This document shows positions 5,546 to 26,131 of a stretch of DNA of 26,287 nucleotides, piece by piece. This DNA comes from a virus, in the IMG/VR virus record IMGVR_UViG_3300042922_000129, positions 1-26,287 of that record; one strand, given 5' to 3'. The notes under the pieces were generated by a model, which was not told the DNA's origin, ran no database searches, and worked only from the letters and a program-made list of their open reading frames with translations. A program made the position numbers and the translations under genes. Positions within the stretch are counted from its first letter, which is position 1; each line of letters starts with the position of its first letter.

Positions 5546-6811
5546 ATGGCGATTAACCTAAACATAAGCAAAAAAGTGTTTAACCCTGTTTATTATGATT
5601 ATCTTGGCTATGTTGCTCCATTGGAGATATATTATGGCGGTAGTAGCTCTGGCAAGTCCGTATTCCTTTCTGATCGCTGTGTTTTGGACATGCTTAAAGG
5701 AGGTCACAATTACCTCATATTGCGCAAGGTAGCCAATACTGTAAGGCGTAGCGTGTTCAATGAGATAAGCAAGTCAATAAGCAAATTCAAAGTATCGCAG
5801 TTCTTTAACATCAATAAAACAGACATGATTATCACCTGTCAGAATGGCTATCAAATACTGTTTGGCGGAATGGATGACTCAGAGAAGATTAAGTCGATTA
5901 CTCCAGCCAAGGGTGTCATCACGGATTGTTGGTATGAAGAGTCCACAGAGGCTGATTATGAGGACGTACAGCAACTAGACAAGCGCCTGAGAGGCCAGAG
6001 TAAGGTTAAGAAGCGTATTGTATTAAGCTTTAACCCTATCTATCAAACGCATTGGATTTACTCGAATTACTTCGCTGGTAAGTGGTCGGATGATAGCAAG
6101 CATTACAAAGATGCTGAGTTGTCCATATTAAAGACCACGTACAAAGATAATATGTTTCTCACTCCTGACGATGTGCAGCGGTTGGAGAATACCAAGGACA
6201 AGTACTACCGGGACGTTTATCTTGATGGTAAATGGGGTGTGCTTGGAAAGGTTATATTTGCAAACTGGCGCACAGAAGATTTAACGGAGAAGCGTAAAAC
6301 AGTATCGACATTTCATAATGGGCTTGACTTCGGCTATAGCTCAGATCCCGCAGCGCCAACGCACCTGCACTATGACAGGGAGCGTATGACGCTTTATTTA
6401 TTTGATGCCAAGTATTGCTATGAAATGACGAATGATTTACTAGCTGCTGAGATAAAAAACATGATCGGCAGACAGGTTATAACATGCGATTGCGCAGAGC
6501 CTAAATCGATACAGGAGCTACGCCAGCATGGTGTTACAGCTATAGCCTGCAAGAAGGGAAAAGACAGCGTTAATTTCGGCATACAGTGGCTGCAAAAGCT
6601 GCAAATCGTCATTCACCACACGCTGAGAGAAGCGATAAACGAGTTCACTATATACAAATGGCGTGAGGACAAAGATGGCAACGCCTTACCGGAACCGGTA
6701 GACAAAAACAATCACATTATTGACAGCATCCGGTACGCTCTAGAACAAGAAATGGCGTATGTAGAGAAGCAGAAAATCAATCAAAGAATACCAATGGCGG
6801 GGGCGATGTAG
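5546..6811 (+). CDS. terL: Terminase large subunit (ATPase-nuclease packaging motor)
   Basis: A 421-residue protein of usual length for the PBSX/Terminase_3 type. The N-terminal ATPase has Walker A GGSSSGKS at residues 31-38, an arginine-rich segment RKVANTVRR at about 60-68, and Walker B VITDCWYEE at 124-132 with the catalytic Glu pair. The coupling motif region (VLSFNP, about 159-164) follows. The C-terminal RNase-H-like nuclease has Asp261 in LDFGYSSDP, Asp315 in CDCAEPKSI and Asp393 in NNHIIDSIRYA, the expected three metal ligands. The enzyme translocates DNA into the prohead through the portal and cuts the concatemer. All catalytic residues appear intact. Confidence 0.93.
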   Translation: MAINLNISKKVFNPVYYDYLGYVAPLEIYYGGSSSGKSVFLSDRCVLDMLKGGHNYLILRKVANTVRRSVFNEISKSISKFKVSQFFNINKTDMIITCQNGYQILFGGMDDSEKIKSITPAKGVITDCWYEESTEADYEDVQQLDKRLRGQSKVKKRIVLSFNPIYQTHWIYSNYFAGKWSDDSKHYKDAELSILKTTYKDNMFLTPDDVQRLENTKDKYYRDVYLDGKWGVLGKVIFANWRTEDLTEKRKTVSTFHNGLDFGYSSDPAAPTHLHYDRERMTLYLFDAKYCYEMTNDLLAAEIKNMIGRQVITCDCAEPKSIQELRQHGVTAIACKKGKDSVNFGIQWLQKLQIVIHHTLREAINEFTIYKWREDKDGNALPEPVDKNNHIIDSIRYALEQEMAYVEKQKINQRIPMAGAM

Positions 6812-6813
6812 TT

Positions 6814-7212
6814 TTGTTGGGAGTAATAAAAAAAGAATGGGAAGACAAACTTGAAGCCTCTTTAAATGAATTAGTTAATCGCAGAGAAATAGTTGAAAAC
6901 TATATTGCGCTTGTTAACGACATTAGCTTTGCGTTTGTGTCTAAAAACAAGTATGGTCATGACAACATATGGGTGTTTTCGTCTTGCCATGGAGATATAG
7001 AAATAAAGTACACTGACACAATAGACAGCAATGAAATTTTGTTAGTAAAAAAAGAGAGCGACTTGCATCTAATAAGCGATAAAACTAGAAGCATGGCGCT
7101 GACAAGGGTTTCAGAATTAGCGTGTAAGATTTATCAATGTGGAGAATCGTTTGAAACAAGAGACGAATTGCGCCCGTTGTTAAAGCTTCTTGGATTTAAA
7201 ATTGACGATTAA
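6814..7212 (+). CDS. Hypothetical protein between TerL and portal
   Basis: A 132-residue protein starting at TTG 6814 or TTG 6817, with GGCGGGGG inside the end of terL as the likely ribosome binding site. The N-terminal ~30 residues form a charged helix (KKEWEDKLEASLNELVNRRE). The centre has beta-like segments around YGHDNIWVFSSCHGDIEIKY. The C-terminal ~45 residues are again helical (ALTRVSELACKIYQ ... ELRPLLKLLGF). No family is recognised. It fits closely between terL and the portal gene, with 12 bases to the portal start. It could be an inserted accessory gene, since packaging motor and portal genes are normally adjacent. Confidence 0.55.
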   Translation: MLGVIKKEWEDKLEASLNELVNRREIVENYIALVNDISFAFVSKNKYGHDNIWVFSSCHGDIEIKYTDTIDSNEILLVKKESDLHLISDKTRSMALTRVSELACKIYQCGESFETRDELRPLLKLLGFKIDD

Positions 7213-7224
7213 GGAGGTGACAAG

Positions 7225-9327
7225 TTGAAGTTAAGCAAAGCCACATCAGATATGGTTGTTGCCAAGCTGAATCAAGATATTGATGATGCAAACAGCTTTT
7301 ATGAAGAGGGAAGAGAGCCGCACGTAATCGAGCAATACCAAATCTACAATGCAGAAAAAGCTTTCTATGACAAGATGTTTCCTGTTCTGTCAAAGAAGTC
7401 TAGTCTAACTGACTGCTCAGTCGCAGACACAATAGAATGGACAATGCCTGCACTAATGAAGATGTTTACTGCCTCTGAAGATGTAATCACTATAACGGGC
7501 GTAACAGTTGAAGACGATGAACCGGCAGAAAAGATGCAGCAGCTTATCAACTATCAGCTACAGCGCAAAAACAAGTTCTTCGGAATAATGTATCAATGGT
7601 TTAAAGACGCGCTGATAACCAACCTTGGCGTTATAAAGTGCTATTGGGATAGAGATGAGCGCATAGTCAGGCAACAGGTTCAATTAAGCCCAGACGCACT
7701 GATTGAGTTTGAAGCACAACCAAAGGTGAAGATAGTCGATATACAGCCTGATATGGTCACAGGAACGCTTATTGTTGAGTTTGACGGGCCAAAGGTAGTA
7801 AAGAATCAACCTGTTATCGAAAACATCTTACATAGCGAATTCCGGTACTCTTCAGATGCTAACAACCTTGATGATGCAGATTTTGTTGCACATCGTAAGA
7901 TTGTTAGCATTGATTATTTACGCAAGAAAGCAAAAGACGGACTGTATGATAAGCAAGCGGTAAGGGAGGTAGCTGAAAAGGCAAAAGACCCTGACTATAC
8001 AACGCTTGACTACGAGAATAACCCACATCTTGACGAACAGAAGCAACAGACAGATCGCGGAAGAATGAAAACAGAACTATATGAGTGCTATGTTAAAATG
8101 GCGCTTGATGATGACCCGGAAGAAGAGTTAAAAGATTATATCGTAACCATGTGTCAGGATGTTATCTTGCGTATTGAAGAAAATCATTACGGAAGGCATC
8201 CTTTTTTTGTTATCTCTCCTATACTTGATCCGCACAAGGTTTTCCCCGAGCATGGGTTTGTTGACCTTATAGGGCCACTACAGCACCTTAAAACGGCTAT
8301 GATTAAGCAGATTACGCATAACATAGCAATCAGCAATAATCCGCAAATGGCGGTCAACATGGCGATGCTGGTAGACATTAATGATGTTCTCGAAGGCAGG
8401 CAGCTTGTTCGTACTAATGGAGCAATAGCAGAGGCTATACAGCCTATAGCAAGGCCGCAGCTTCAGCCGTGGACGTTTAGTATGCTTGACTATGTAGACC
8501 AACAGAGAGCAAGCAGAACAGGCATTACGCCATATAATCAAGGTGTAGACCAGAATGGCCTAAACAAGACCGCTACAGGCGTAAACCTCATACAACAGGC
8601 TGCAAATCAACGCATAGAGTTAATAGCTCGCATATTCAGCGAGACAGGATTAAATCAGTTGTTCCGATTCCTTATTGAGCTAAACCAGAAGTTCATTGAC
8701 CAGGAGCAAGTGCTGCGGCTTACCAATGAAACGCTGACAATACGTCCTGATGATTTACGAGGCGAGTTTGACTTGGTTGTCAATGCTGGCATGGGTAATG
8801 GAACGAAAGAATCTGCAATGATGCAGGCGCAACAGTTAGGCGCTGTAGTAGAGAAACTTGCAGCAGTTGGACTTGCTGGGCCAGAACAGTTCTACAACGC
8901 CGGGAAAAAGATGCTTGAAACCATCGGCGAGAAAAATGTTGATGCTTATATTATTAGCCCAGAACAACAAGCGCAGCAACAGAAGCCGCCAGAAGGGCCG
9001 CAAGCAAGAGAATCTATCAGTGTTAAGTTTGAGCAATTGCCTATTAACGCAAAGGTTCAAATGCTCACCATGTTAGGGTTGCAGGTAACACCAGAAGACT
9101 TCATGCAACAGATGCAACTAGACGCACAGAATAAGGCCATAGAAGCCGAAATAGATGCTAAGGCTAAACAGTCTACAGAGGCACATAAAACAGCCATAAA
9201 CGCTTTAGGAAGCGTAGCAGAGCACCACATGAAAGGAGGCGCTAATGGACAAGGAACGCAGGTTAATGGAATTGGAGCAGGAAGTCAAGCAGTCGGAAAT
9301 ATGCAAAGAGTTCCGGGCGGTATTTGA
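7225..9327 (+). CDS. Portal protein, P22-like podovirus type
   Basis: A 700-residue protein starting at TTG 7225 behind a near-perfect AAGGAGGTGA. Its length and the motif region SRTGITPYNQGVDQNGLNKT followed by ATGVNLIQQAANQRIELIAR (from about residue 432) are typical of P22-type and related podovirus portals. The N-terminal part has the TSSTV-like ADTIEWTMPALMKMFTASED segment seen in these portals. The C-terminal ~120 residues are rich in Gln and helical, matching the barrel region of P22 portal, and end in a Gly-rich tail. Twelve copies would form the DNA channel at the capsid vertex and bind TerL and the head-to-tail adaptors. Its 3' end overlaps the next gene by 83 bases. Confidence 0.88.
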   Translation: MKLSKATSDMVVAKLNQDIDDANSFYEEGREPHVIEQYQIYNAEKAFYDKMFPVLSKKSSLTDCSVADTIEWTMPALMKMFTASEDVITITGVTVEDDEPAEKMQQLINYQLQRKNKFFGIMYQWFKDALITNLGVIKCYWDRDERIVRQQVQLSPDALIEFEAQPKVKIVDIQPDMVTGTLIVEFDGPKVVKNQPVIENILHSEFRYSSDANNLDDADFVAHRKIVSIDYLRKKAKDGLYDKQAVREVAEKAKDPDYTTLDYENNPHLDEQKQQTDRGRMKTELYECYVKMALDDDPEEELKDYIVTMCQDVILRIEENHYGRHPFFVISPILDPHKVFPEHGFVDLIGPLQHLKTAMIKQITHNIAISNNPQMAVNMAMLVDINDVLEGRQLVRTNGAIAEAIQPIARPQLQPWTFSMLDYVDQQRASRTGITPYNQGVDQNGLNKTATGVNLIQQAANQRIELIARIFSETGLNQLFRFLIELNQKFIDQEQVLRLTNETLTIRPDDLRGEFDLVVNAGMGNGTKESAMMQAQQLGAVVEKLAAVGLAGPEQFYNAGKKMLETIGEKNVDAYIISPEQQAQQQKPPEGPQARESISVKFEQLPINAKVQMLTMLGLQVTPEDFMQQMQLDAQNKAIEAEIDAKAKQSTEAHKTAINALGSVAEHHMKGGANGQGTQVNGIGAGSQAVGNMQRVPGGI

Positions 9328-9974: not shown

Positions 9975-10973
9975 ATGAACCAAGCTGAAAAGCAGTTCAT
10001 TTCTATTGATTTACAATTATTCGCCGATGAAGGTGCAACCGACACGGACACCACGCAAAACGTTGGCGCAGAGTTTGCAAAAGCAAGTTGGGAAGAAAAA
10101 GCCCAGATGCTACGCAGTGCAATTGACCAGGAAGAACAAGAAGAACAGCAAGATTCTGATAGCGAAGCTGCTGAAACTGAACAACCGGAAACGGACTCAG
10201 AGGAAGAGGCCAAACCAACAGAGCCAACATACAAAATTAAAGTAGGCGGCGAAGAAAAAGATGTGCCGCTATCTGAATTAATCAAAATGGCACAGCAGGG
10301 CGAAGATTATACCCGCAAAACTCAGGCGGTAAGCCAAGAACGTAAAGAACTTGATGAAATGAAAGCCAAGCTTGAAATGCTGGCATCTCAGACTCAGCCA
10401 AAGATTGACCCGTTGGTAGAGGCGAATAGAGAGATTGAGACATTTAGGCAAGAGTTTCTTCGAGTAACAGGTCAAGAGTACAACGAGTGGGATATGGCAC
10501 ATCAAGCGATATTCCTTGACTACAAACAGCAAGGGGCCTATCACAAAGCGCAACAGCAGCAACTGACAACAGTCACTAATAACATCAGGCAAACCGTACA
10601 GGCACAACCTGAGATATTAGCGGACTTTGACAATGCAATGTATGCGCTTTTAAATTCCGGGGAAGCAGGTAGAGCAGAGTTTGATAAGGTCTACCAAGCC
10701 AAGGCAAGGACGCTACACGGCACGCCAACGGTAGATGACATTAATCTTGTCGATTCGTTCTATCAAAAAGTACAAGCATTAAAAGCAGTTCCGGCAAAGC
10801 CGGTTCCTAAGGTAGTACCACAACAAAAACAAACCCCTCCCAAAGTTGAACGAGCAGGGGCCGTTGAGTTAGAAGACAGCAAACCTACGTTTAATAAAAA
10901 AACATGGGCAAGCGCCGATACTGACGGTCAAAAAGCAATGCTCCGCAAACTGCGAGAGAGTGGTCAAATTTAA
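9975..10973 (+). CDS. Capsid scaffolding protein
   Basis: A 332-residue protein directly upstream of the coat gene. It starts at ATG 9975 behind AAAGGATG. The N-terminus carries ISIDLQLFADEG, a motif found at the start of many Firmicutes phage scaffold or coat proteins. An acidic region follows (about residues 14-80, rich in Glu, Gln and Thr), then a long coiled coil with YTRKTQAVSQERKELDEMKA near 114-133, a common scaffold signature. The C-terminus is basic and ends in KKTWASADTDGQKAMLRKLR, consistent with the helix that scaffolds use to bind coat. It would guide procapsid assembly and leave before packaging. Confidence 0.8.
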   Translation: MNQAEKQFISIDLQLFADEGATDTDTTQNVGAEFAKASWEEKAQMLRSAIDQEEQEEQQDSDSEAAETEQPETDSEEEAKPTEPTYKIKVGGEEKDVPLSELIKMAQQGEDYTRKTQAVSQERKELDEMKAKLEMLASQTQPKIDPLVEANREIETFRQEFLRVTGQEYNEWDMAHQAIFLDYKQQGAYHKAQQQQLTTVTNNIRQTVQAQPEILADFDNAMYALLNSGEAGRAEFDKVYQAKARTLHGTPTVDDINLVDSFYQKVQALKAVPAKPVPKVVPQQKQTPPKVERAGAVELEDSKPTFNKKTWASADTDGQKAMLRKLRESGQI

Positions 10974-10987
10974 GGAGTGAATTAACA

Positions 10988-11878
10988 ATGGCACAGAAAA
11001 AGACTTATTCTGAAACAACTAATAGAGAATTTCTTTCCGACATGATCACCAATATTTCCCCTTATGACACACCCATCCATAGCATGATCGGCAAGCAAAG
11101 CGTAGGATCAACAAAACCGGAATGGCCTGAAGATGTTCTTCGTTCTCCTGGCAGCAACAAACACGTTGAAGGCGCTTCTGACGTGGCTGCTCTTGGCACT
11201 CCGACTAATCGTAGCCGCTTGTACAATTACACGCAGATATTCAAAGAAGGCTATGAAGTATCCGAAACTCAGCAGGAAGTTGACAAGGCTGGCGTATCTG
11301 ATGAGCTTGATTACAATATGTTGAAGGCTATGAAGACAATTGCGCAGGACGTTGAATACATGTACATGAATAGCACCGCTGCTGTGGTTGGCGATGCTTC
11401 AACTGCGCGTGAATCTGGCGGTCTTCAAGCTTCTATTACTACTAACGTTTTTGCTAATGGCGGGACAACTCGCTTTATTACCGAGCAATTGTTAAACGAT
11501 GGGTTGCAGGCTGCTTGGGCTGCTGGCGGCGATGCCCTTGATATTATCTGCTCCGGTTCGAACAAACGGCGCTTGTCTGGTTTTACTGCTGGCAATACAA
11601 AGCAGGTTGATGCTAAAGACAAAAAACTCATTGCTACGGTTGCCGTGTATGAATCCGACTTTGGATTAGCTAAGTTTAAAGCTTCTCGTTACATGCCTGA
11701 CACATTAATTTTCGGACTTGACAAAGAGTATTTGAAATGCGGATACCTCCGTAATTTCAAGCGCAAAGTCCTTCCTGATACCAACGATTCTAAGTCTGAA
11801 ATCATCAAAGGTGAACTGTGCTTGATTACCAGAGCAGAAAAAGCTCACTTCATCATCAAAGATTTGAAAGTAGTATAA
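10988..11878 (+). CDS. Major capsid protein, SU10-like (DUF5309 type)
   Basis: A 296-residue protein behind AAGGAGTG. The sequence opens with ETTNREFLSDMITNISPYDT, followed by PIHSMIG, then a TRSxxxN-type region (NRSRLYNYTQIFKEGYEVSE). It ends with a beta-rich C-terminus including FGLAKFKASRYMP and a final IIKDLKVV strand. This is the pattern of the SU10/DUF5309 family of HK97-fold coat proteins, at its usual length of about 300. It would form the icosahedral shell around the scaffold. The gene is followed by a short hairpin and a new strong ribosome binding site, consistent with its need for higher expression. Confidence 0.85.
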   Translation: MAQKKTYSETTNREFLSDMITNISPYDTPIHSMIGKQSVGSTKPEWPEDVLRSPGSNKHVEGASDVAALGTPTNRSRLYNYTQIFKEGYEVSETQQEVDKAGVSDELDYNMLKAMKTIAQDVEYMYMNSTAAVVGDASTARESGGLQASITTNVFANGGTTRFITEQLLNDGLQAAWAAGGDALDIICSGSNKRRLSGFTAGNTKQVDAKDKKLIATVAVYESDFGLAKFKASRYMPDTLIFGLDKEYLKCGYLRNFKRKVLPDTNDSKSEIIKGELCLITRAEKAHFIIKDLKVV

Positions 11879-11885
11879 CAACACT

Positions 11886-11910
11886 GGCGTGGGCTACGGT
11901 TCACGCCTTT
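11886..11910 (+). terminator. Weak terminator/hairpin after the coat gene
   Basis: GGCGTG (11886-11891) pairs with CACGCC (11902-11907) around a ten-base loop, followed by TTTGATTTAT. The short stem and broken U tract suggest partial termination or mRNA stabilisation rather than a full stop, so coat mRNA may exceed downstream mRNA. Confidence 0.4.
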
Positions 11911-11934
11911 GATTTATATTTGGAGGTGTAGAAT

Positions 11935-12369
11935 TTGTATAATCCGGTAACACAACATCACGGAACAGCGTCAACGACAAGCACGCCTGACTTTAGCGTT
12001 GTAGGAACTCCTGCACAAGCGGCAATGGCTGGCGATATGGTCTTTTCTATTTCCCCGGCAACAGTGAATAAAACAGCGTTTTCAACTGCCAGAACGCGAA
12101 CAGTGCGCATTGAAATGAAAACAGCGTCAGGCGTTCTGCATGATTGGTATAACGGTACACTTACTATTGCCATTGCTGATACATCAAGCGCAGGTACTGC
12201 TACTATAGCTAGCACATCGCTTGCAATGGTTAATGGCGTAGCGATTGCGACTGTATCTCTTTCTGCAAATGCATGGATAGCAACGGAAACAAATACGTTA
12301 ACACTCAGCAATAAAACAGTAATGGGGTACACGGTAACAGGTGGAACAAGCGTAGAAACCATCGTTTAA
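11935..12369 (+). CDS. Possible Ig-like head decoration or fibre protein
   Basis: A 144-residue protein starting at TTG 11935 behind TGGAGGTG. It is very rich in Thr, Ser, Ala and Val with almost no charged residues after residue 60, giving alternating beta strands such as RTVRIEMKTASG, GTLTIAIADTSSAGTATI and NTLTLSNKTVMGYTVTG. This resembles an Ig-like or bacterial-Big-type beta-sandwich. It lies directly after the coat gene, where phages often encode decoration or fibre proteins. The sequence has no signature I can name, so the role is inferred from position and composition. Confidence 0.5.
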   Translation: MYNPVTQHHGTASTTSTPDFSVVGTPAQAAMAGDMVFSISPATVNKTAFSTARTRTVRIEMKTASGVLHDWYNGTLTIAIADTSSAGTATIASTSLAMVNGVAIATVSLSANAWIATETNTLTLSNKTVMGYTVTGGTSVETIV

Positions 12370-17873: not shown

Positions 17874-18217
17874 TGGATAATTTACAACAATGGATAACCA
17901 AATACGAACAAGAAGCCGAGGAGTTTAATTTACTCCCCGGCTTTTCTATTTACTTCGAACCTGAAAAGGGCTTTTTCTGCTGGCACAAATTTAAGCACAT
18001 ATTCGAAATTGACCACACCTGCACTAATGACATTATGTGGGCGCACGACACCTGTATGAACATAGCAAGAGAAAAAGGCTGTACGCTTTTACGCACGGCA
18101 ACTACACGCAATCCTGCAGTCTATATGCGACTTACAAAGGCAAAGCCAAATCTTCCTCTCAGCGGATTAAGGGCTAATGGAGAATTCTACTGGATTTTTG
18201 ACAAGGAGGTAATATGA
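17873..18217 (+). CDS. Small protein between tailspike and ejection proteins
   Basis: A 114-residue protein whose ATG overlaps the tailspike stop (TAATG). It has a mixed sequence with many aromatics: FSIYFEPEKGFFCWHKFKHI, an EIDHTCTNDIMWAHDTCMNI segment, then GCTLLRTATTRNPAVYMRLT and a terminal FYWIFDKEVI. The last part (G-C-x-x-L-R-T-x-T-x-R-N-P-x-x-Y-x-R-L-T) resembles the core of a GNAT-like fold, as seen in small podovirus virion proteins, but I cannot confirm it. Position upstream of the ejection proteins fits a virion-associated or assembly factor. Confidence 0.5.
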   Translation: MDNLQQWITKYEQEAEEFNLLPGFSIYFEPEKGFFCWHKFKHIFEIDHTCTNDIMWAHDTCMNIAREKGCTLLRTATTRNPAVYMRLTKAKPNLPLSGLRANGEFYWIFDKEVI

Positions 18218-19359
18218 TGCAAGGAAAACAAATATGGTCTGATTGTTCCGGATTGCCAGGAATGCGTCATGTACGGTTTAAAGGCGGTGGACAAACACAA
18301 ACCACGACGCGCAATATTCCCGCGCAAACGGCACAAGAGGCCGCATTACAAACCGGATTGTTTAACTATGGCACATCCGGCCTTAACAATGCAACAAACT
18401 ACCAGAATCAAGCAAATGCAACTCTAGGAAACACCATCAACCTTGATTGGAATAAAGCATATGGTGGCTATACAAACACCATGAACGGTGTAAACAGTGG
18501 ATACAACAACCTAATGAGCGGCAATCTCCCTACTGCATACAGCGATGCCAGAAAAGCTACCCTGACAAACGATTTAACCAGTACATTTGGCGATGCTATA
18601 AACAACCTTGGCAATCGCGGAATACTTAATTCTAGCGTAACAAATTCAGCTTTAAATGGCATTAGCCAAAATGCTGCAAATACACTCGCCAATAACTATA
18701 CAACTGATATAAATACATATTCCAACATCCTTGGCAATACAGCCAACAACGCAGCAAATCAACTTAACACGTCTGCACAAGCACAGCAAAACAGCTATTA
18801 TACTCCTAATCAACTATTCAACTATGCAAATAATAGCCTTGGAGCAGGACAAAACCTATTCAATACTCTCTATAACGGGCGTATGGGAACTGGCGGATCA
18901 ACCACAACACAAAGTGGCGGCGGCAATTCTGGAGCCTGGAGCGCACTTGGTAGTATTGGATCAGCAGCGATAATGTGTTTTGTTGCTGGAACTAAAATAG
19001 CCACACCTGACGGATACAAAAACATAGAAGACGTTAAAATAGGCGATAAAGTGTATTCGCTTAATGGCTCTGTAGAGTCCATAATTGAGCTACAAGAGCC
19101 TTTTATATCCCCTAACGACTATATGCTCATAGAGACAAAAACAACGCAAATTAGGCCGACTTCTACACAGCCTTTTATGACCACTGAAGGATATTTGTTG
19201 CCACATCAATTGCAAGGTAAAAAGCTTGTCGGACTAGACAAAACAGAGGAAGTAATTTCTGTAACTGGTGGACAAGGAAAAGAGCTGGTATACGACTTCA
19301 AATGTACCGGCGCTAATGTCTATTTTGCCAATGGTTTTGCTGTAAAGGGGCGTGATTAA
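18214..19359 (+). CDS. Virion/ejection protein with C-terminal Hint domain
   Basis: A 381-residue protein behind AAGGAGGTAAT. Residues 1-250 are Asn/Ala/Thr/Gly-rich and helical, like P22 gp7/T7 gp14-type ejection proteins. From Cys255, CFVAGTKIATPDGYKNIEDV starts a Hint (hedgehog/intein) domain with the usual nucleophile Cys and the G-D-K-V-Y-S segment. The block B equivalent reads TSTQPFMTTEGY with Gln where a His is normal. The end, YFANGFAVKGRD, keeps the Y-F-A-N-G strand but lacks the terminal His-Asn. Protein splicing is therefore unlikely, while N-terminal acyl-shift cleavage at Cys255 may remain. No extein follows. Confidence 0.7.
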   Translation: MMQGKQIWSDCSGLPGMRHVRFKGGGQTQTTTRNIPAQTAQEAALQTGLFNYGTSGLNNATNYQNQANATLGNTINLDWNKAYGGYTNTMNGVNSGYNNLMSGNLPTAYSDARKATLTNDLTSTFGDAINNLGNRGILNSSVTNSALNGISQNAANTLANNYTTDINTYSNILGNTANNAANQLNTSAQAQQNSYYTPNQLFNYANNSLGAGQNLFNTLYNGRMGTGGSTTTQSGGGNSGAWSALGSIGSAAIMCFVAGTKIATPDGYKNIEDVKIGDKVYSLNGSVESIIELQEPFISPNDYMLIETKTTQIRPTSTQPFMTTEGYLLPHQLQGKKLVGLDKTEEVISVTGGQGKELVYDFKCTGANVYFANGFAVKGRD

Positions 19360-20955
19360 ATGCGTTGGTTTAATCAACAACAAGAGAGCGGTCCTTGGGA
19401 TGCTGTTGCTCAAATAACGTCAGCCATCATGCAAAGAAACCAACAGCGAGCGCAAGAGAAAAAAGACTTGCAATCTACGCAGAGCCTGTTTGGATTGCTT
19501 CAACCTTCCGAAGTAGACACCGGAACCGGACCGCGCAGTCAGATTAACTTTGATCAAACGCTGCAAACCGTAAAAGGAGCAACGCCGCAAAGAGGACTGT
19601 TTGACTTCGCTAAAATAGGACAAACACCGCCTATCTACGGTGGACAAGGGTTGTTTAGTGTTGGAAATCCGGCTGGAATGGTTGAACAAGGTAATATTGA
19701 TTTATCCATGCGGCCGACAGTTCGCAATGCTGACGGATCTATTAGCACAGTGCGTTCTATGGGCGCTAATATTGACGGGAAAGAGGTATTGCTCCCAACG
19801 GTTAGTAATGACGGTCGCATAATGACCGATGACGAAGCAGTGAACAATTACCGCCAAACAGGGCAGCATCTTGGCATATTTTCTTCTCCTGAAGCTTCTA
19901 CAAAGTATGCCGAAGGATTGCACAACCAACAGGCAGGCATGTACGGTAGCGGACCAACATTACAGCAACCTACACCGCTAAATGGAACAACGGCACTACA
20001 ACAACCGGCGCAACAAATTCAAGCGCCGACTATCACGCAGAAAAACCGCACGATAAAAGATGTAGAAAAAGACATTCGCCAAAACTATGCAACTCGCATT
20101 CAAGAAGCAATAAAATCCGGCAATATCAATCCAACGATGCTACGCCAATATATGCCGCAGATACAGCAGCAGATTAACAGCGAAATAGAACAGGCTAGGG
20201 GTGACTATACCAAACAGCAGGAACAAACAGCCTGGGCTAATTTTGAAAAAGCGCCTGACTATAAGAGCAAAATGATGACAGGCATTAAAGCCGGACTAAA
20301 CCCGCAGTTATTGAAACTTGCGCTTGATTCTGGGATGGAAGTCAAAACGATCGATCTTGGAGACAGAACGCTTCCTATTGGAATAGGAAAAGATGGTAGC
20401 ATTGTTAATTTGATTACCGGCAAGCCGCCAACAGCAGAAGAAATGGCAGCTGGCGTTAACCCTACGGCAAAATATAACAAACAAACATTAAGCGCAGATA
20501 CAAAATACAGTGTTGATAATCGCCCTGTTCCTTCTGGCGGTGGTAGTGGCGGCAATGGATTAAGCACTGCAAATTTATTTTCGCTGTACAAAGATGCCAC
20601 AGAAACAGTGCAAGAGGCAACAGGAGAATTTGATGCACAAGGAAGGCCGGTAATGACACGGCGCATTAAAAATCCGGAACTTGCCCAAAGATTAAAGCCT
20701 ATTATTGACAGTATGCTTCCGGGTGGTGGCGGTCAAGCACAAGAAAGCTCCCAGCCACAACCAGCACAACAAGATTTATCCGGAAAGGTATCTGCTGCAA
20801 GGGCAAAAGGAATATCGGATAGTCAAATTAGGTCTGCTCTTTTGTCTGATGGTCTAAGTCAACAAGAAATAAACACTTTAATGGGAGTTCAGCAACCGCA
20901 AAGACAACAACCAGAACTTAATTCAGTAGGGCTAGATGCTTCAATGTGGTACTAA
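19360..20955 (+). CDS. Ejection protein-like virion protein with conserved GNIDL domain
   Basis: A 531-residue protein immediately after the Hint protein (TAA then ATG). Residues ~105-200 carry a recurring phage internal-protein domain: GNIDLSMRPTVRNADGSIST, VRSMGANIDGKEVLLPTVSN, DGRIMTDDEAVNNYRQTGQH and a YAEGLHNQQAGMY end. The rest is low-complexity, rich in Gln, Pro and Gly, with helical stretches (VEKDIRQNYATRIQEAIKSG). The position matches P22 gp20 and the second of three ejection proteins. It is likely packed in the capsid and released into the cell envelope during infection. The enzymatic activity, if any, is not evident. Confidence 0.65.
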   Translation: MRWFNQQQESGPWDAVAQITSAIMQRNQQRAQEKKDLQSTQSLFGLLQPSEVDTGTGPRSQINFDQTLQTVKGATPQRGLFDFAKIGQTPPIYGGQGLFSVGNPAGMVEQGNIDLSMRPTVRNADGSISTVRSMGANIDGKEVLLPTVSNDGRIMTDDEAVNNYRQTGQHLGIFSSPEASTKYAEGLHNQQAGMYGSGPTLQQPTPLNGTTALQQPAQQIQAPTITQKNRTIKDVEKDIRQNYATRIQEAIKSGNINPTMLRQYMPQIQQQINSEIEQARGDYTKQQEQTAWANFEKAPDYKSKMMTGIKAGLNPQLLKLALDSGMEVKTIDLGDRTLPIGIGKDGSIVNLITGKPPTAEEMAAGVNPTAKYNKQTLSADTKYSVDNRPVPSGGGSGGNGLSTANLFSLYKDATETVQEATGEFDAQGRPVMTRRIKNPELAQRLKPIIDSMLPGGGGQAQESSQPQPAQQDLSGKVSAARAKGISDSQIRSALLSDGLSQQEINTLMGVQQPQRQQPELNSVGLDASMWY

Positions 20956-20968
20956 GGGGGGCGTTAAA

Positions 20969-23797
20969 ATGGGCGCACTTGATGATTTATTAAAACAGAA
21001 TAACGCCCCAACGATGGCAAGCGGAAGCGCATTGGATAATCTGTTGACACCACAACCAATTCAATCCAATCAATCAAATTTAGATAGCTTAATTTCTACG
21101 GGAAACAAAGAAAACAGCACCATTTACGACACGGCTGCTGATTTATTGACGGCACCTGCAACAGTAGCCCTGGAGGCTTTATCTTACTTAGATAAACCCC
21201 GGGGAGCTATTGCTGGTGCTGTTAAAGCATATCAAGACGATACACCCCTGCTTGAAGGCGCTCAAAAAGGCTGGGATGATAACACAAGCTGGAAAGAGAC
21301 ATTCAATCAAGATTGGGTAAAAGAAAACCCCACAACCGCGGCTATTGCAGGTTTCGCAACAGACGTTGCACTTGATCCTCTTTGGTTTCTTACTCCTGCA
21401 AAAGTTGTTGGCGGTGCCTCCAAAGCAAGCAAGGCTATAGGACTAACCGACAACGTAATAAACCCTGCTGTAAAGGCCGTAAATGCCTCAGAAACAGGGC
21501 AGAAGAGCATTGCCGCACTAGAGGACTTCTTCGGTAAAAATCGCGTTGCAGACGATATTGCAGAGTTTAACGCTGGACGCGCAACCGATCAACTAGCGCA
21601 GAGAGATGTTACGCAGTTCGCAAAAGATGAGTTAGGGCAATACGGCGCAGCAGCAGATAAGCCATTGATTGACTATATCGAGTCAGCCAACAAGCCGCAA
21701 AGCACATTGCAACTCACTCCTAATATGCAAACTGACATACTGGACTTGCATAAAAATAATAAGCTCGCTGCTGAAATAAAGGCCGGTAACGTTCCAAGAG
21801 AAACAGCCGCCGATGCTTTCCGCAATAGTGGCGAAGAAATACCTAACTATCTCTTGGATGTGCGTCAATCCCAAGCACGAGCAGATGGTGTTGCAGATGC
21901 AATGCTCCCTGCCTATCAATACCGTGATGAAATATTAAACCAAATACCCGACAACGGACTGCGCAAGGCCATTCAATCGGTAGGTGACAAGTTTGTCGAG
22001 CTAAACACAAAGCAATCTGACGCGCTGTACAACGCTAGCAGGCTTGCAGATGAATCGGCAATACATTTCCCTGACGGTTCGCATTTGCGGCGCTCCTACG
22101 AGAAATATGACAGCCCTGCTGACTTCCTCGAAGACCTACGCAAGAATGGCACACAGCAAGAATATGCAAAGGCCTATAAAGACCTGGCAGGCGTTAAAAC
22201 CCCTAATGCTGGCGCTCAAGGCTTTGGACAAGAACATCGCGTAGCAATGAAAGATTTCGCTGAACGGCAGAGCATTTCTAGTGCTACGCTTCAAAAGATG
22301 GGCGTTATTAATAATGCTGAATACCGCATGACAGATACTCTCAATCGCGCATCAAAAACACTCCGCGAAGATCAATTTCTGTCAAAGGTAGCTTCTGACT
22401 GGGGAGTCAGCGCAGAAAAAGCGGCAGAGTTATCTCGCACATTACCGGAGCGGCGCAGGTATTTAGAAATACCGGATACAAAGGGATATGGCCCACTTGC
22501 TGGCAAATGGGTTCCTAAAGATGTGTACCAGCAAGTACTAAACGTAACCAACACAAACGCCGCTCCTGACAGCCTTCTCAAAGCTGCACAAACGCTTACT
22601 AGCTGGTGGAAAGTTGGCAAGTTGGCGAATCCTTCATCGATCATGCGAAACTTTTACAGCGGCCTTCCTATGGCGAATGTGTTTGGCGAAGTTCCTATGT
22701 ATGCCTTGCCTAAATACATGGCGCAAATGAAAAATATGTTTACAAAGCAAAAGTGGAATGATCCGCGCATACGTGAGCTCATGCAGACCGGGATAATGGA
22801 CAACATCTTTACTAAGCAGGAACTAAAGAACATCTTGGGCGGCAAGCCAAACGCTGTTAAGAATTTTGCAAATAAGGCTATGAACGCTTTTGGACAACCA
22901 GACCAATACTGGAGAGCAGTTGTATATGCGTACCACCGTGATAAAGGCAAGACAGCAAAAGAGGCTGCAAAAATAGCCGACAGAGCATTGTTTAATTACA
23001 GTCAAGCGCCTGAGTGGATCAATACAGCAGCTAAAAACGGCATAGTGCCATTCGCTAAATTCCCCTACTTCGCTACTAAGGAGACAGCCAGGGCGGTATA
23101 TAATAGACCGGCACAAGTTAGCAAGTATGTTAAGCCGCAAAATCAAACTAACTCACAGGACCAGGAGAGCATTCTCCCTGATTATATGCGGTCTAAAACT
23201 CTTCTCCCTCTTGGAGAAGGTGAACGCACTGTCAACGGTAAAACGCAAAAAGTTCAAAACAACCTTGACCTGTCCTACATCCTACCATTCGCTAATGACG
23301 TATCGTTAGGCAATCCGCTTTCTGACTTGCTACAAGTTGTCCGTACCGGCAGAAACTCTCTTGGAATGGATATTATCAAACCCGGGATGACAAACGAGCA
23401 AAAGACGAATGCACTGTTTAAACTCGCATATAACACGCTAGGGCCTTCTGCTCCTGTACCTGGTACATACGCATGGGATAAGCTGATAAACGGCCTTACA
23501 GGCGGCGTGGATGCAAAGGGGAGACAGTACGATGCAGCAAGTTCCATACTGGATGTATTTGGCGGTATTCGCAATGTTCCGCTTAATACTGATGAACTAT
23601 ATCAGCAAAAAATAGCCGGATATGAGCGAGAAAAAAGAGATACCGCCGCACGAATAGCCGAGGCTCAACGTGACAAGCGGTATACTCCGGAGCAGCGCAA
23701 AGAAGTTATAGGAGATCTACAAAGGCAGCTTAGAAAGATTAGCCAAGACGCGCAAGAGTCGCGCAAATCATATGAGCGCTTAAAGAAGAAAGGCTAA
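20969..23797 (+). CDS. Large internal virion/ejection protein with LPD38-like region
   Basis: A 942-residue protein. ATG 20969 is chosen because AAGGGGGG lies just upstream; the frame opening at 20936 overlaps the preceding gene. The N-terminus has repeated short motifs (LDDLLKQN, LDNLLTPQ, LDSLISTG). The C-terminal half has KLANPSSIMRNFYSGLPMAN, DRALFNYSQAPEWINT and GIVPFAKFPYFATKETARAV, the pattern of LPD38-type large phage/polyvalent proteins. The end is a charged coiled coil (QRKEVIGDLQRQLRKISQDA). It holds the position of P22 gp16 and is probably ejected with DNA to form a channel. Its stop codon overlaps the stop codon of the antisense gene. Confidence 0.65.
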   Translation: MGALDDLLKQNNAPTMASGSALDNLLTPQPIQSNQSNLDSLISTGNKENSTIYDTAADLLTAPATVALEALSYLDKPRGAIAGAVKAYQDDTPLLEGAQKGWDDNTSWKETFNQDWVKENPTTAAIAGFATDVALDPLWFLTPAKVVGGASKASKAIGLTDNVINPAVKAVNASETGQKSIAALEDFFGKNRVADDIAEFNAGRATDQLAQRDVTQFAKDELGQYGAAADKPLIDYIESANKPQSTLQLTPNMQTDILDLHKNNKLAAEIKAGNVPRETAADAFRNSGEEIPNYLLDVRQSQARADGVADAMLPAYQYRDEILNQIPDNGLRKAIQSVGDKFVELNTKQSDALYNASRLADESAIHFPDGSHLRRSYEKYDSPADFLEDLRKNGTQQEYAKAYKDLAGVKTPNAGAQGFGQEHRVAMKDFAERQSISSATLQKMGVINNAEYRMTDTLNRASKTLREDQFLSKVASDWGVSAEKAAELSRTLPERRRYLEIPDTKGYGPLAGKWVPKDVYQQVLNVTNTNAAPDSLLKAAQTLTSWWKVGKLANPSSIMRNFYSGLPMANVFGEVPMYALPKYMAQMKNMFTKQKWNDPRIRELMQTGIMDNIFTKQELKNILGGKPNAVKNFANKAMNAFGQPDQYWRAVVYAYHRDKGKTAKEAAKIADRALFNYSQAPEWINTAAKNGIVPFAKFPYFATKETARAVYNRPAQVSKYVKPQNQTNSQDQESILPDYMRSKTLLPLGEGERTVNGKTQKVQNNLDLSYILPFANDVSLGNPLSDLLQVVRTGRNSLGMDIIKPGMTNEQKTNALFKLAYNTLGPSAPVPGTYAWDKLINGLTGGVDAKGRQYDAASSILDVFGGIRNVPLNTDELYQQKIAGYEREKRDTAARIAEAQRDKRYTPEQRKEVIGDLQRQLRKISQDAQESRKSYERLKKKG

Positions 23798-24045: not shown

Positions 24046-24651
24046 GTGTTAATTATTATCGAAAGATCATGCGATACCGTGTCTGAATGGTGCAAAGTTT
24101 TCAATAGATTGTTGGAAAACTGGCAAATTAAAACTGTTCTTGGTTTGTTTTTCGGATTTTTCTTCAGTGACATATGGCAACCATCTTTATTTATTGCCGT
24201 TGTTGTGTTATTTGATCTATGGGCGAAATTAAACGCGCTATGCTATCAAGCTAGGCGAGAATATGCGCCAAATAGCAAGTGGCCTTTTGTCGGATTTATA
24301 GCTGCATGGACTCACGATGTTTTTGACGATGAGCCCATGAGAAAGAAATTTTTCCCCAAGGTAGGTTACTACTTTATAATGATGCTGCTTGCAGGTGGAT
24401 TGCTGAAGCTTTTTAAATCTGTTGAGGCTTATATGTTCAATGAAATTGCATATGCGCTGCTTATTTATATTGTAATGACAGAAATGAAGAGCATAGCAAG
24501 GAATTTGAAAGCTTCGCGCAATCCGTTATATAGAGTATTTGCTTTTGTTGTAAATAAATATTACGAGAAAAAGGCGGGGCTCCCGTTAACTGCCCAGGCA
24601 ACACAAAAGGCAGAAGACATAATTCAAGTGGAAGAAGGGAAGCAACCGTGA
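24046..24651 (+). CDS. Holin-like membrane protein
   Basis: A 201-residue protein starting at GTG 24046, nine bases after AAGGAG. The nearby ATG (24044) reads only two codons before a stop. Hydrophobic segments lie at about residues 28-41 (KTVLGLFFGFFFSD), 48-60 (LFIAVVVLFDLWA), 106-124 (VGYYFIMMLLAGGLLKLF) and 130-146 (NEIAYALLIYIVM). The DLWAKLNAL and basic MRKKFFPKVGYY segments resemble the D-x-x-x-G ... K-K pattern of phage holin_4-type proteins. It precedes the endolysin with an overlapping GTGA junction. It would form membrane lesions to release or activate the endolysin. Confidence 0.6.
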   Translation: MLIIIERSCDTVSEWCKVFNRLLENWQIKTVLGLFFGFFFSDIWQPSLFIAVVVLFDLWAKLNALCYQARREYAPNSKWPFVGFIAAWTHDVFDDEPMRKKFFPKVGYYFIMMLLAGGLLKLFKSVEAYMFNEIAYALLIYIVMTEMKSIARNLKASRNPLYRVFAFVVNKYYEKKAGLPLTAQATQKAEDIIQVEEGKQP

Positions 24652-25325
24652 GGCTTTGTATCAATCAAGGACACAGCGGCCCCGGCGTTGATGTTGGAGC
24701 AGTAGGGCCTACCGGGCTTTATGAAAGCGATGTAACTTTTTCCGTTGGTAACTTTTTAGCAACAATAGCCCAGGCAGAAGGACACGAAACTTTACTCACT
24801 CGTACAGAACGCACAGATCCATCAAATGATGATCTAAAAAACATCGTCAATATGAGTAATAACTTCGGCGCAGACGTGTTTGTTAGCATCCACTGTAATT
24901 CATTCAGTACGCCGGCCCCAGAAGGAACAGAGACTTGGTATTTCCCGGGCTCTGCCGCCGGCATGGATCTAGCGCGACATATTCAGCAAGAATTGCTTTT
25001 AGAACTAGGACGTAAAGATCGCGGTATTCGCATGGCTAACTACTTTGTTATTCGCTATACATATGCTCCGGCCGCACTGGTTGAATTGGCGTTCATATCT
25101 AATCCGGAAGAAGAGAAATTACTCGCAGACCATAACTTCCAATATAACGCCGCTGTTGCCATTTGGAAGGGAATTAAATCTTACCTAGGCATTCCTATTA
25201 AAGAACCAGAAAAACATCACACATACGAAATACAAGCGCCACAGGAGCAACCGCCACAACAAGTTGAATCGCGTGAAGATTGGTCTGATGCTGGATTAAG
25301 AAATAGAATGAGCGAGGTTAAATAG
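24648..25325 (+). CDS. N-acetylmuramoyl-L-alanine amidase endolysin (Amidase_3)
   Basis: A 225-residue protein starting at GTG 24648 that overlaps the holin stop. The Amidase_3 zinc site is complete: His9 in INQGHSG, Glu26 in LYESD, His82 in VSIHCNS and the catalytic Glu146 in ALVELAFISNPEEE. The catalytic domain occupies about residues 1-178. It cuts the amide bond between MurNAc and L-Ala in peptidoglycan at the end of infection. A C-terminal extension (about 180-225, Gln/Pro/Glu-rich) has no recognisable wall-binding repeat. No signal peptide is visible, so release should depend on the holin. Confidence 0.92.
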   Translation: MRLCINQGHSGPGVDVGAVGPTGLYESDVTFSVGNFLATIAQAEGHETLLTRTERTDPSNDDLKNIVNMSNNFGADVFVSIHCNSFSTPAPEGTETWYFPGSAAGMDLARHIQQELLLELGRKDRGIRMANYFVIRYTYAPAALVELAFISNPEEEKLLADHNFQYNAAVAIWKGIKSYLGIPIKEPEKHHTYEIQAPQEQPPQQVESREDWSDAGLRNRMSEVK

Positions 25326-25642
25326 TGGAAGCAGGTTTATATTTGTTGTTGGCTCACTACTTAGCAGATTTCCCTTTGCAAGGAGATTTTCTTGCAAATA
25401 TGAAGGGAAAGAATTGGTATTTATTAATGGCGCATGTATTGATATATTCATTAACCATCGGTGCTTTTATGCATGCATTAGGGATATATGCAACATGGAA
25501 ATTGTTCGTTGTGGCAATATCTCATGTTTTTGTTGATTATTGGAAATGCAATTATGCGCCAAAAGAAACAGCATTAACAACGAGTTTGTACATAGATCAA
25601 GCGTTGCACTTAATCGTATTGGCTATCTGTTTAAAATTTTAA
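25325..25642 (+). CDS. DUF3307 family membrane protein in lysis cassette
   Basis: A 105-residue protein starting at GTG 25325, overlapping the endolysin stop (TAGTG). The opening YLLLAHYLADFPLQGDFLAN contains the H-x-x-x-D-x-x-x-Q/L-G-x-x-(L/A) motif of the DUF3307 family. Further hydrophobic segments are about 37-52 (AHVLIYSLTIGAFMHA), 59-73 and 93-105. A second HxxxD pair (SHVFVDYWK) sits near residue 68. The family's function is unknown. In lysis cassettes it could act as an auxiliary or second holin, which is inference from location. Confidence 0.7.
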   Translation: MEAGLYLLLAHYLADFPLQGDFLANMKGKNWYLLMAHVLIYSLTIGAFMHALGIYATWKLFVVAISHVFVDYWKCNYAPKETALTTSLYIDQALHLIVLAICLKF

Positions 25643-25649
25643 AAAGGGG

Positions 25650-26033
25650 ATGGTAACCATTGTTATTCCGAACGCTAAAACGATCATTTATATTGTCTTT
25701 GCTGTTTGTCTGTGTGTCATTTGCTACATGTTCGGCCCAGACTTATTCGGTGGACGAGCAAGAGTTGACCAGGTTAGAGAACATATTCAATCAGCTAGAG
25801 ATCAACAACAACAAGCTGCTCAACGACTTGACACAATCAAAACAGGACTTGACACAAGCGCGGCTGAGTCTGGAAGAGTATCAACAGGACTTGGCAAAGT
25901 TGCAGATACAATTGCTAGCGCTGAGAGACGAATCGACAGCAGCAAAGACCAATCTAACGACAGCGCAAGCCTCATTGCAGAAGGCAAACGAATCGTTGAG
26001 CAAATTAAGCAAAGAAACAAAACTGGAAATTAG
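25650..26033 (+). CDS. Candidate inner-membrane spanin (i-spanin-like), overlapping next frame
   Basis: A 127-residue protein with ATG 25650 eight bases after the DUF3307 stop. It has one N-terminal membrane segment, about residues 11-28 (TIIYIVFAVCLCVICYMFG), followed by a long, charged helical part rich in Gln, Ser and Asp (VREHIQSARDQQQQAAQRLD). This is the topology of an i-spanin: cytoplasmic N-terminus and periplasmic coiled coil. GGGG sits immediately next to the ATG, so its ribosome binding is poor and it may depend on coupling. Of its 384 bases, 374 overlap the second frame at 25660-26097. The spanin role is inferred. Confidence 0.55.
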   Translation: MVTIVIPNAKTIIYIVFAVCLCVICYMFGPDLFGGRARVDQVREHIQSARDQQQQAAQRLDTIKTGLDTSAAESGRVSTGLGKVADTIASAERRIDSSKDQSNDSASLIAEGKRIVEQIKQRNKTGN

Positions 26034-26097
26034 ATGGCTAAAGGTGCAACGTGCTTTTCTTGTTGCAGGCATAGGCTATCTTGCTATGAACAGGTAG
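25660..26097 (+). CDS. Candidate outer-membrane spanin or periplasmic partner, nested frame
   Basis: A 145-residue protein starting at TTG 25660, ten bases after AAAAGGGG, so it has the better-spaced ribosome binding site of the two frames. It has a signal peptide (basic RTLKRS, then FILSLLFVCVSFATC) with a degenerate lipobox-like FATC at about residues 21-24, or signal peptidase I cleavage after CSA. A long coiled coil follows (RLENIFNQLEINNNKLLNDL ... ALRDESTAAKTNLTTAQASL). A short hydrophobic end (AFLVAGIGYLAM) is present. Signal plus coiled coil plus C-terminal hydrophobic end also suits a single-protein (u-) spanin. Function is inferred from topology and position. Confidence 0.6.
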   Translation: MLFRTLKRSFILSLLFVCVSFATCSAQTYSVDEQELTRLENIFNQLEINNNKLLNDLTQSKQDLTQARLSLEEYQQDLAKLQIQLLALRDESTAAKTNLTTAQASLQKANESLSKLSKETKLEIRWLKVQRAFLVAGIGYLAMNR

Positions 26098-26104
26098 AAT
26101 TTAA

Positions 26105-26131
26105 CCCCGGCTTAATTGCCGGGGCTTTTCT
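26105..26131 (+). terminator. Rho-independent terminator of the lysis operon
   Basis: CCCCGGC (26105-26111) and GCCGGGG (26118-26124) form a perfect seven-base GC stem with a six-base loop, followed by CTTTTCTATTT. It starts seven bases after the last lysis gene. The convergent 34-aa gene ends within its U tract, so the terminator may partly serve both strands. Confidence 0.85.

Follow-up and report, generated by a model that had tools for sequence, protein, structure and literature searches.

Two-component spanins have been surveyed as 182 embedded, 228 overlapped and 118 separated gene pairs, and in 507 of 528 known systems one partner or both have a periplasmic cysteine (PMC6139136). The o-spanin start lies, in about 70% of the embedded pairs, 0.4-0.5 of the way along the i-spanin (PMC6139136). 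This 2018 survey required a lipoprotein signal and left 91 of 677 Gram-negative phages without a spanin; non-canonical lipoboxes, for example AWAC, exist (PMC6139136).

Among the described systems, lambda Rz and Rz1 are encoded in two frames of the same DNA, Rz having i-spanin topology and Rz1 being a short proline-rich lipoprotein nested in it. P2-type overlapped spanins associate, within the lysis cassette, an inner-membrane protein made of an N-terminal helix and a periplasmic helical domain with a partner whose gene, in another frame, runs past the 3' end of the first. U-spanins of the T1 gp11 type are single proteins with an export signal, a lipobox, a periplasmic domain and a C-terminal membrane segment.

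We report here a gene pair, A and B, carried by a 26,287-base IMG/VR virus record with an SU10-type portal, the whole of which was analyzed and is called the window below. A/B is not a classical two-component spanin; it most likely represents an undescribed, lipoprotein-free variety of spanin-like lysis pair.

The lysis cassette and its relatives

The relevant features of the window are the following:

24046-24651, + strand: holin-like membrane protein (Pfam Phage_holin_4_1, E=0.022, below cut-off)
24648-25325, + strand: endolysin, N-acetylmuramoyl-L-alanine amidase (Amidase_3; PF01520 E=8e-43, phrog_435 E=1e-46)
25325-25642, + strand: DUF3307 small membrane protein (PF11750, E=4e-19)
25641-25649, + strand: Shine-Dalgarno-like AAAAAGGGG, common to both starts, 9 bases before ATTG
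25659-26033, + strand: gene A, i-spanin-like (start ATT 25659 preferred, ATG 25650 alternative)
25659-25662, + strand: ATTG, the overlapping candidate starts ATT (A) and TTG (B), one base apart
25660-26097, + strand: gene B (signal peptide 25660-25737, CSA/Q site, motif, helix, hydrophobic tail)
26053-26088, + strand: hydrophobic segment of 12 residues at the C-terminal end of B (AFLVAGIGYLAM), flanked by R and NR
26105-26129, + strand: intrinsic terminator CCCCGGC-TTAATT-GCCGGGG-C-TTTT, read from the sequence, closing the lysis cassette

The first-pass annotation, made from the sequence alone, had placed A and B after holin, endolysin and DUF3307 and before a terminator, an arrangement borne out by the order of the open reading frames, the Pfam and PHROG matches and the hairpin followed by a T-run. 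The slot of the holin-like frame is occupied by clear holin families in two other loci, L017 (Pfam) and L011 (PHROG 199). Among the records searched, the DUF3307 gene is present in that of the window only and was not found in the 10 related ones; it is therefore no constant part of the A/B system.

The two frames, each used alone as scan query, retrieved one relative, the closest, at 91 and 94% amino acid identity. A 953-residue protein encoded upstream then served as anchor and revealed the pair in two diverged phages (L005 and L008), further loci were obtained with alignments of B, and tblastn identified the pair in a human-gut phage (MT836582.1), whose own B retrieved no additional relatives when used as scan query. 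Altogether, both frames are found in 13 loci, window included, belonging to several phage types, with identities down to about 20-40%. The contigs G001-G004 represent differing phage types, among them two large phages that encode replication genes themselves, and L011 is a contractile-tailed phage whose IMG number suggests an isolate genome. One contig of 73.8 kb (G002, IMGVR_UViG_3300042922_000250) comprises two distinct phages, both of which have A/B, in copies that differ from each other (L012 and L015). The 953-residue protein itself (window 20936-23797), located in the virion region, is kept in related contigs at 39-97% identity and has no significant match in Pfam or PHROG and none in INPHARED. 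Elsewhere in the window, a putative structural protein (18214-19359) appears by eye to end in a Hint domain of the hedgehog/intein type (CFVAGTKIATPDGYKNIEDVKIGDKVYS...).

The pair normally lies directly 3' of an endolysin gene, often with a holin too, and the endolysin family differs between loci. Amidase_3 enzymes are found beside it in the window, L011, L015, L025 and L026 (that of L015 being assigned by similarity to the enzymes of other loci), Amidase_2 enzymes in L013, L017 and L030, a Peptidase_M15_3 enzyme in L014 and an enzyme with a VgrG3-like C-terminal domain in L012. L028 and L016 encode a related, unannotated putative hydrolase that matches no Pfam endolysin family, and in L016 this putative endolysin is located about 2 kb upstream of the pair. 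Since the enzyme is swapped while the pair is kept, this co-occurrence indicates that A/B has a separate lysis function and moves as a lysis module. The putative lysis enzymes of L008 (9767-10342) and L028 (3347-3919) have the sequence CSTAGDYPxMGxSxWEG in common; neither Pfam nor PHROG gave a match for the latter, and the former has a negligible Pfam match only.

Dual coding and start codons

Two near-coextensive frames overlapping by 374 bases had been proposed from the sequence, and these coordinates were confirmed: frame A spans 25650-26033 (127 residues from ATG, with an alternative start at 25659), frame B spans 25660-26097 (145 residues from TTG), and 374 bases are common to both. Over the whole overlap (101-135 codons), frame A is open in 13 of 13 loci; the third frame contains many stops and its longest open run is 24-33 codons in these loci. 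In a recoding test, one protein was fixed and synonymous codons were drawn at window usage in 20,000 trials per locus. With B fixed, A remained open in 0 to 0.00015 of the trials per locus, and with A fixed, B remained open in 0 to 0.00065 of them. Between the window and its closest relative, 0 of 47 fourfold sites of A and 5 of 42 of B differ, the first few codons of each being left out, the corresponding figure for holin and endolysin together being 43 of 156 (Fisher p=2e-6 for A and 0.02 for B). These open frames, the recoding in both directions and the low change at fourfold sites together establish that A and B are both genes under constraint.

Codon usage related between close relatives may hold a second frame open, so that only one frame would code and the other would be open by chance or codon bias. 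The two-way recoding tests and the persistence of both frames down to about 20-40% identity leave this explanation a negligible probability. The dual coding claimed by the first-pass annotation thus stands, and two checks of the kind which it had suggested agree with it: in the comparison of substitutions per frame, change was low at the degenerate sites of both, and in separate homologue searches the relatives kept both frames, every locus returned by frame A alone also having B. The identity of A between loci after recoding was dropped as evidence, because shared ancestry raises identity too.

The ATTG layout is found in 7 of the 13 loci, with a Shine-Dalgarno-like run at normal distance upstream, and the B tree has members with this layout in each of its two main branches; the other 6 loci have conventional separate starts for A and B. 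The start of A had formerly been set at 25650, and the frame is as stated, but its start is probably ATT 25659 rather than ATG 25650, since this ATG directly abuts the AAAAAGGGG purine run and ATT is the only possible start of A in L015 and L026, where the next candidates would delete most or all of the membrane helix. Similarly, the triplets equivalent to ATG 25650 at position -9 lie within or against the Shine-Dalgarno sequence in L010, L016, L025 and L011, where parts of an extended Shine-Dalgarno site would be expected to lie. Several other genes of the window are preceded by extended AAGGAGGTG-type Shine-Dalgarno sites, and ATG 25650 may be part of such a site rather than a start. A would probably be initiated at the ATT codon, the case being strongest for L015 and L026.

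Protein architecture and comparison with known spanins

Protein A has a short basic N-terminus followed by a membrane helix (about 25680-25733) and a predicted periplasmic coiled coil, and its C-terminal end carries a conserved LIxEGxxI...IxxR after a helix of about 90 residues. Mean hydropathy in a 17-residue window is 1.7-2.9 in 13 of 13 loci and AF2 predicts, at moderate confidence (pLDDT 73), helices at residues 9-27 and 37-126, in agreement with the N-terminal transmembrane segment and helix originally read in A; an i-spanin-like topology is thus well supported. Members of A weakly match several Rz-like spanin PHROGs (E from 2e-5 to 6e-3), with a possible coiled-coil bias.

Protein B starts with a signal peptide composed of a basic n-region, a hydrophobic core and a signal-peptidase-I-like site, the cleavage sites being read by eye with the -3/-1 rule as CSA/Q, GMA/A and GSA/A across members. 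It then contains a QELTRLxxIFxQLExNN motif, and residues 34-144 are predicted to form one continuous helix of 111 residues (pLDDT 86), about 16 nm long if it is a single helix. Most relatives end with the pattern R[ND]-hydrophobic(12-14)-K/R, and such a tail of 12-14 residues is short for a transmembrane helix. The distance from IFxQL to ANxSL is 67 residues in 7 loci and 53 in 6, which differ by exactly two heptads, and the corresponding 42-base length difference removes an equal number of residues from A. A periodicity of 3.5-3.6 residues was computed for both proteins. Fold searches with B in BFVD and the PDB gave no useful match, as expected of a single helix, and the PDB profile matches were spurious hits to generic coiled coils such as tropomyosin and Lpp.

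The lipobox pattern PS51257 fails in 13 of 13 B proteins and B was accordingly rejected as a lipoprotein. The signal peptide, coiled coil and hydrophobic end attributed to B in the first-pass annotation are all present, but the leader, then called lipobox-like, has no lipobox. The signal peptide does have a cysteine close to its end in the window (Cys 24, FATC), L011, L013, L014, L016 and L028, this residue being preceded by T, I, P or M; the B proteins of L012 and L017 have none near the cleavage site. Lipobox proteins sought elsewhere in the window amounted to a few pattern matches, none of them convincing, and no classical spanin was found there.

Set against two-component spanins, A/B likewise lies beside holin and endolysin in a lysis cassette and has a second gene in another frame, here in an extreme overlapped form, and, in A, the N-terminal inner-membrane helix and periplasmic helical domain of an i-spanin. 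None of the 13 B proteins has the lipobox of an outer-membrane lipoprotein of the o-spanin type. A periplasmic cysteine after the membrane helix or signal peptide is absent from 9 of the 13 pairs, window included, and is present in A of L012 and L013 and in the B tail of L016 and L030. Of the spanin pair initially proposed, the dual coding, the lysis cassette and the topology of A therefore hold, but not the strict sense of the term, as the lipobox is lacking and the cysteines are mostly absent; as B failed the test for a lipoprotein, the pair is not classed among the classical spanins. It was also too narrow to call Rz1 a short internal frame in the typical case, 228 overlapped pairs being known against 182 embedded ones (PMC6139136).

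A/B resembles P2-type overlapped spanins in cassette position, in the design of A and in a partner gene extending in another frame beyond the 3' end of the first. Unlike in these, B starts only 1-10 bases after A, so that both export signals are encoded by the same DNA, and B has no lipobox, consists of one long helix with a hydrophobic tail and belongs to a pair with few periplasmic cysteines. Lambda Rz/Rz1 likewise use two frames of the same DNA with an i-spanin-like first product, whereas B is longer than A and is no lipoprotein. With its export signal, predicted periplasmic domain and putative C-terminal membrane segment, B is reminiscent of T1 gp11, but it lacks the N-terminal lipobox of u-spanins and is always paired with A. 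A/B is among the tighter overprints found in nature: the same bases carry two coiled coils and two export signals, possibly along with two start codons that have two bases in common.

Proposed function, host and rival explanations

We consider it fairly probable that A/B, a genuine overlapping pair, performs the last step of the lysis cassette in the manner of a two-component spanin without lipoprotein. The N-terminal helix of A would anchor this protein in the inner membrane, with the coiled coil projecting into the periplasm, while B would be exported and freed of its signal peptide by signal peptidase I. The mature B rod (about 111 residues, about 16 nm) would be long enough to bridge the periplasm, and its basic-flanked hydrophobic tail, taking the place of a lipid anchor, might enter a membrane, which would most likely be the outer membrane. 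After removal of the wall by holin and endolysin, a coiled-coil complex of A and B would draw the membranes together or disrupt the outer membrane. In many family members, one ribosome-binding site could start both proteins at ATTG. A more specific proposal, that of a lipid-free spanin for hosts without outer-membrane lipoproteins, in which a C-terminal helix serves as anchor and the AUUG dual start sets the ratio of both proteins, is tentative.

In Negativicutes, LolA and LolB are absent (PMC5007114), neither outer-membrane lipoproteins nor Lol homologues are on record for Veillonella parvula (PMC10665443), and lipid modification went undetected by mass spectrometry, a result that was not conclusive (PMC5491611). 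A phage of hosts without outer-membrane lipoproteins could hardly use an Rz1-type lipoprotein and would require a non-lipid anchor, and the absence of a lipobox in B would fit such hosts. The affinities of the phage genes are mosaic: the window endolysin is nearest to that of a Moorella phage (47%), the terminase to those of Marinitoga (Thermotogae) viruses (52%) and that of G001 to Paenibacillus and Faecalibacterium phages, the SU10-type portal to phages of Gram-negative hosts and the gut-phage baseplate to Pseudomonas and Aeromonas phages. The ribosome-binding sites of the window are strong, Firmicute-like Shine-Dalgarno sequences. A diderm Firmicute is thus a plausible host, which this mosaic fits and does not prove. 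Scans of 84,980 GTDB genomes with B alignments found no A/B relative, and neither a plasmid search, the host labels of related phage genes nor the contigs G001-G004 indicated a host. As a separate observation, the packaging genes of the window (5546-9327) are themselves mosaic, terminase and portal having different affinities.

The Firmicute-like endolysin, terminase relatives and Shine-Dalgarno sites would also suit a monoderm Firmicute without outer membrane, where the site of action of A and B would be the inner membrane or the wall, with a role such as the regulation of holin or endolysin; the tail of B could insert in the inner membrane. We hold this to be unlikely, as the portal and baseplate relatives come from Gram-negative phages, A resembles Rz-like families, and a modeled rod of about 16 nm with membrane elements would rather suit envelope bridging. 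It is still less credible that the pair is a classical two-component spanin whose B would be a lipoprotein of the outer membrane, with Cys 24 (FATC) in a non-canonical lipobox: the AWAC precedent (PMC6139136) and the cysteines near the signal-peptide end of several B proteins speak for it, whereas the residue ahead of these cysteines, their absence from L012 and L017, the failure of PS51257 throughout and the CSA, GMA and GSA signal-peptidase-I-like sites just after speak against it. B might finally act alone as a u-spanin-like protein, A being a later overprinted accessory or regulator, and B indeed has hydrophobic elements at both ends and is better conserved than A (mean column identity of 48 vs. 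42%). This appears quite improbable given that B is without lipobox, that A is open in all loci, even the most diverged, and that A has a membrane helix and heptad periodicity of its own.

The lipoprotein-free pair remains the preferred reading. Surveys demand a lipoprotein signal (PMC6139136) and systems like A/B therefore escape them. Outer-membrane opening by phages of diderm Firmicutes without Lol, such as Negativicutes, seems undescribed in the open-access literature searched, in which we found no description of spanins in Negativicutes. If true, A/B would provide a concrete answer for such hosts and would lend itself to profile searches and to a simple genetic test.

L006, which is related to the window phage, is without the A/B pair and encodes, 3' of its amidase, a protein whose N-terminus contains a membrane helix and whose C-terminus is aromatic (GGGVSVRF), the loci of interest being 10432-10977 and 11247-11957. 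The C-terminal stretch of a nearby HNH endonuclease (YAPNKN...GAGIAIRF) is similar, as though it were a copy of that of the membrane-helix protein, which might itself be another outer-membrane lysis device.
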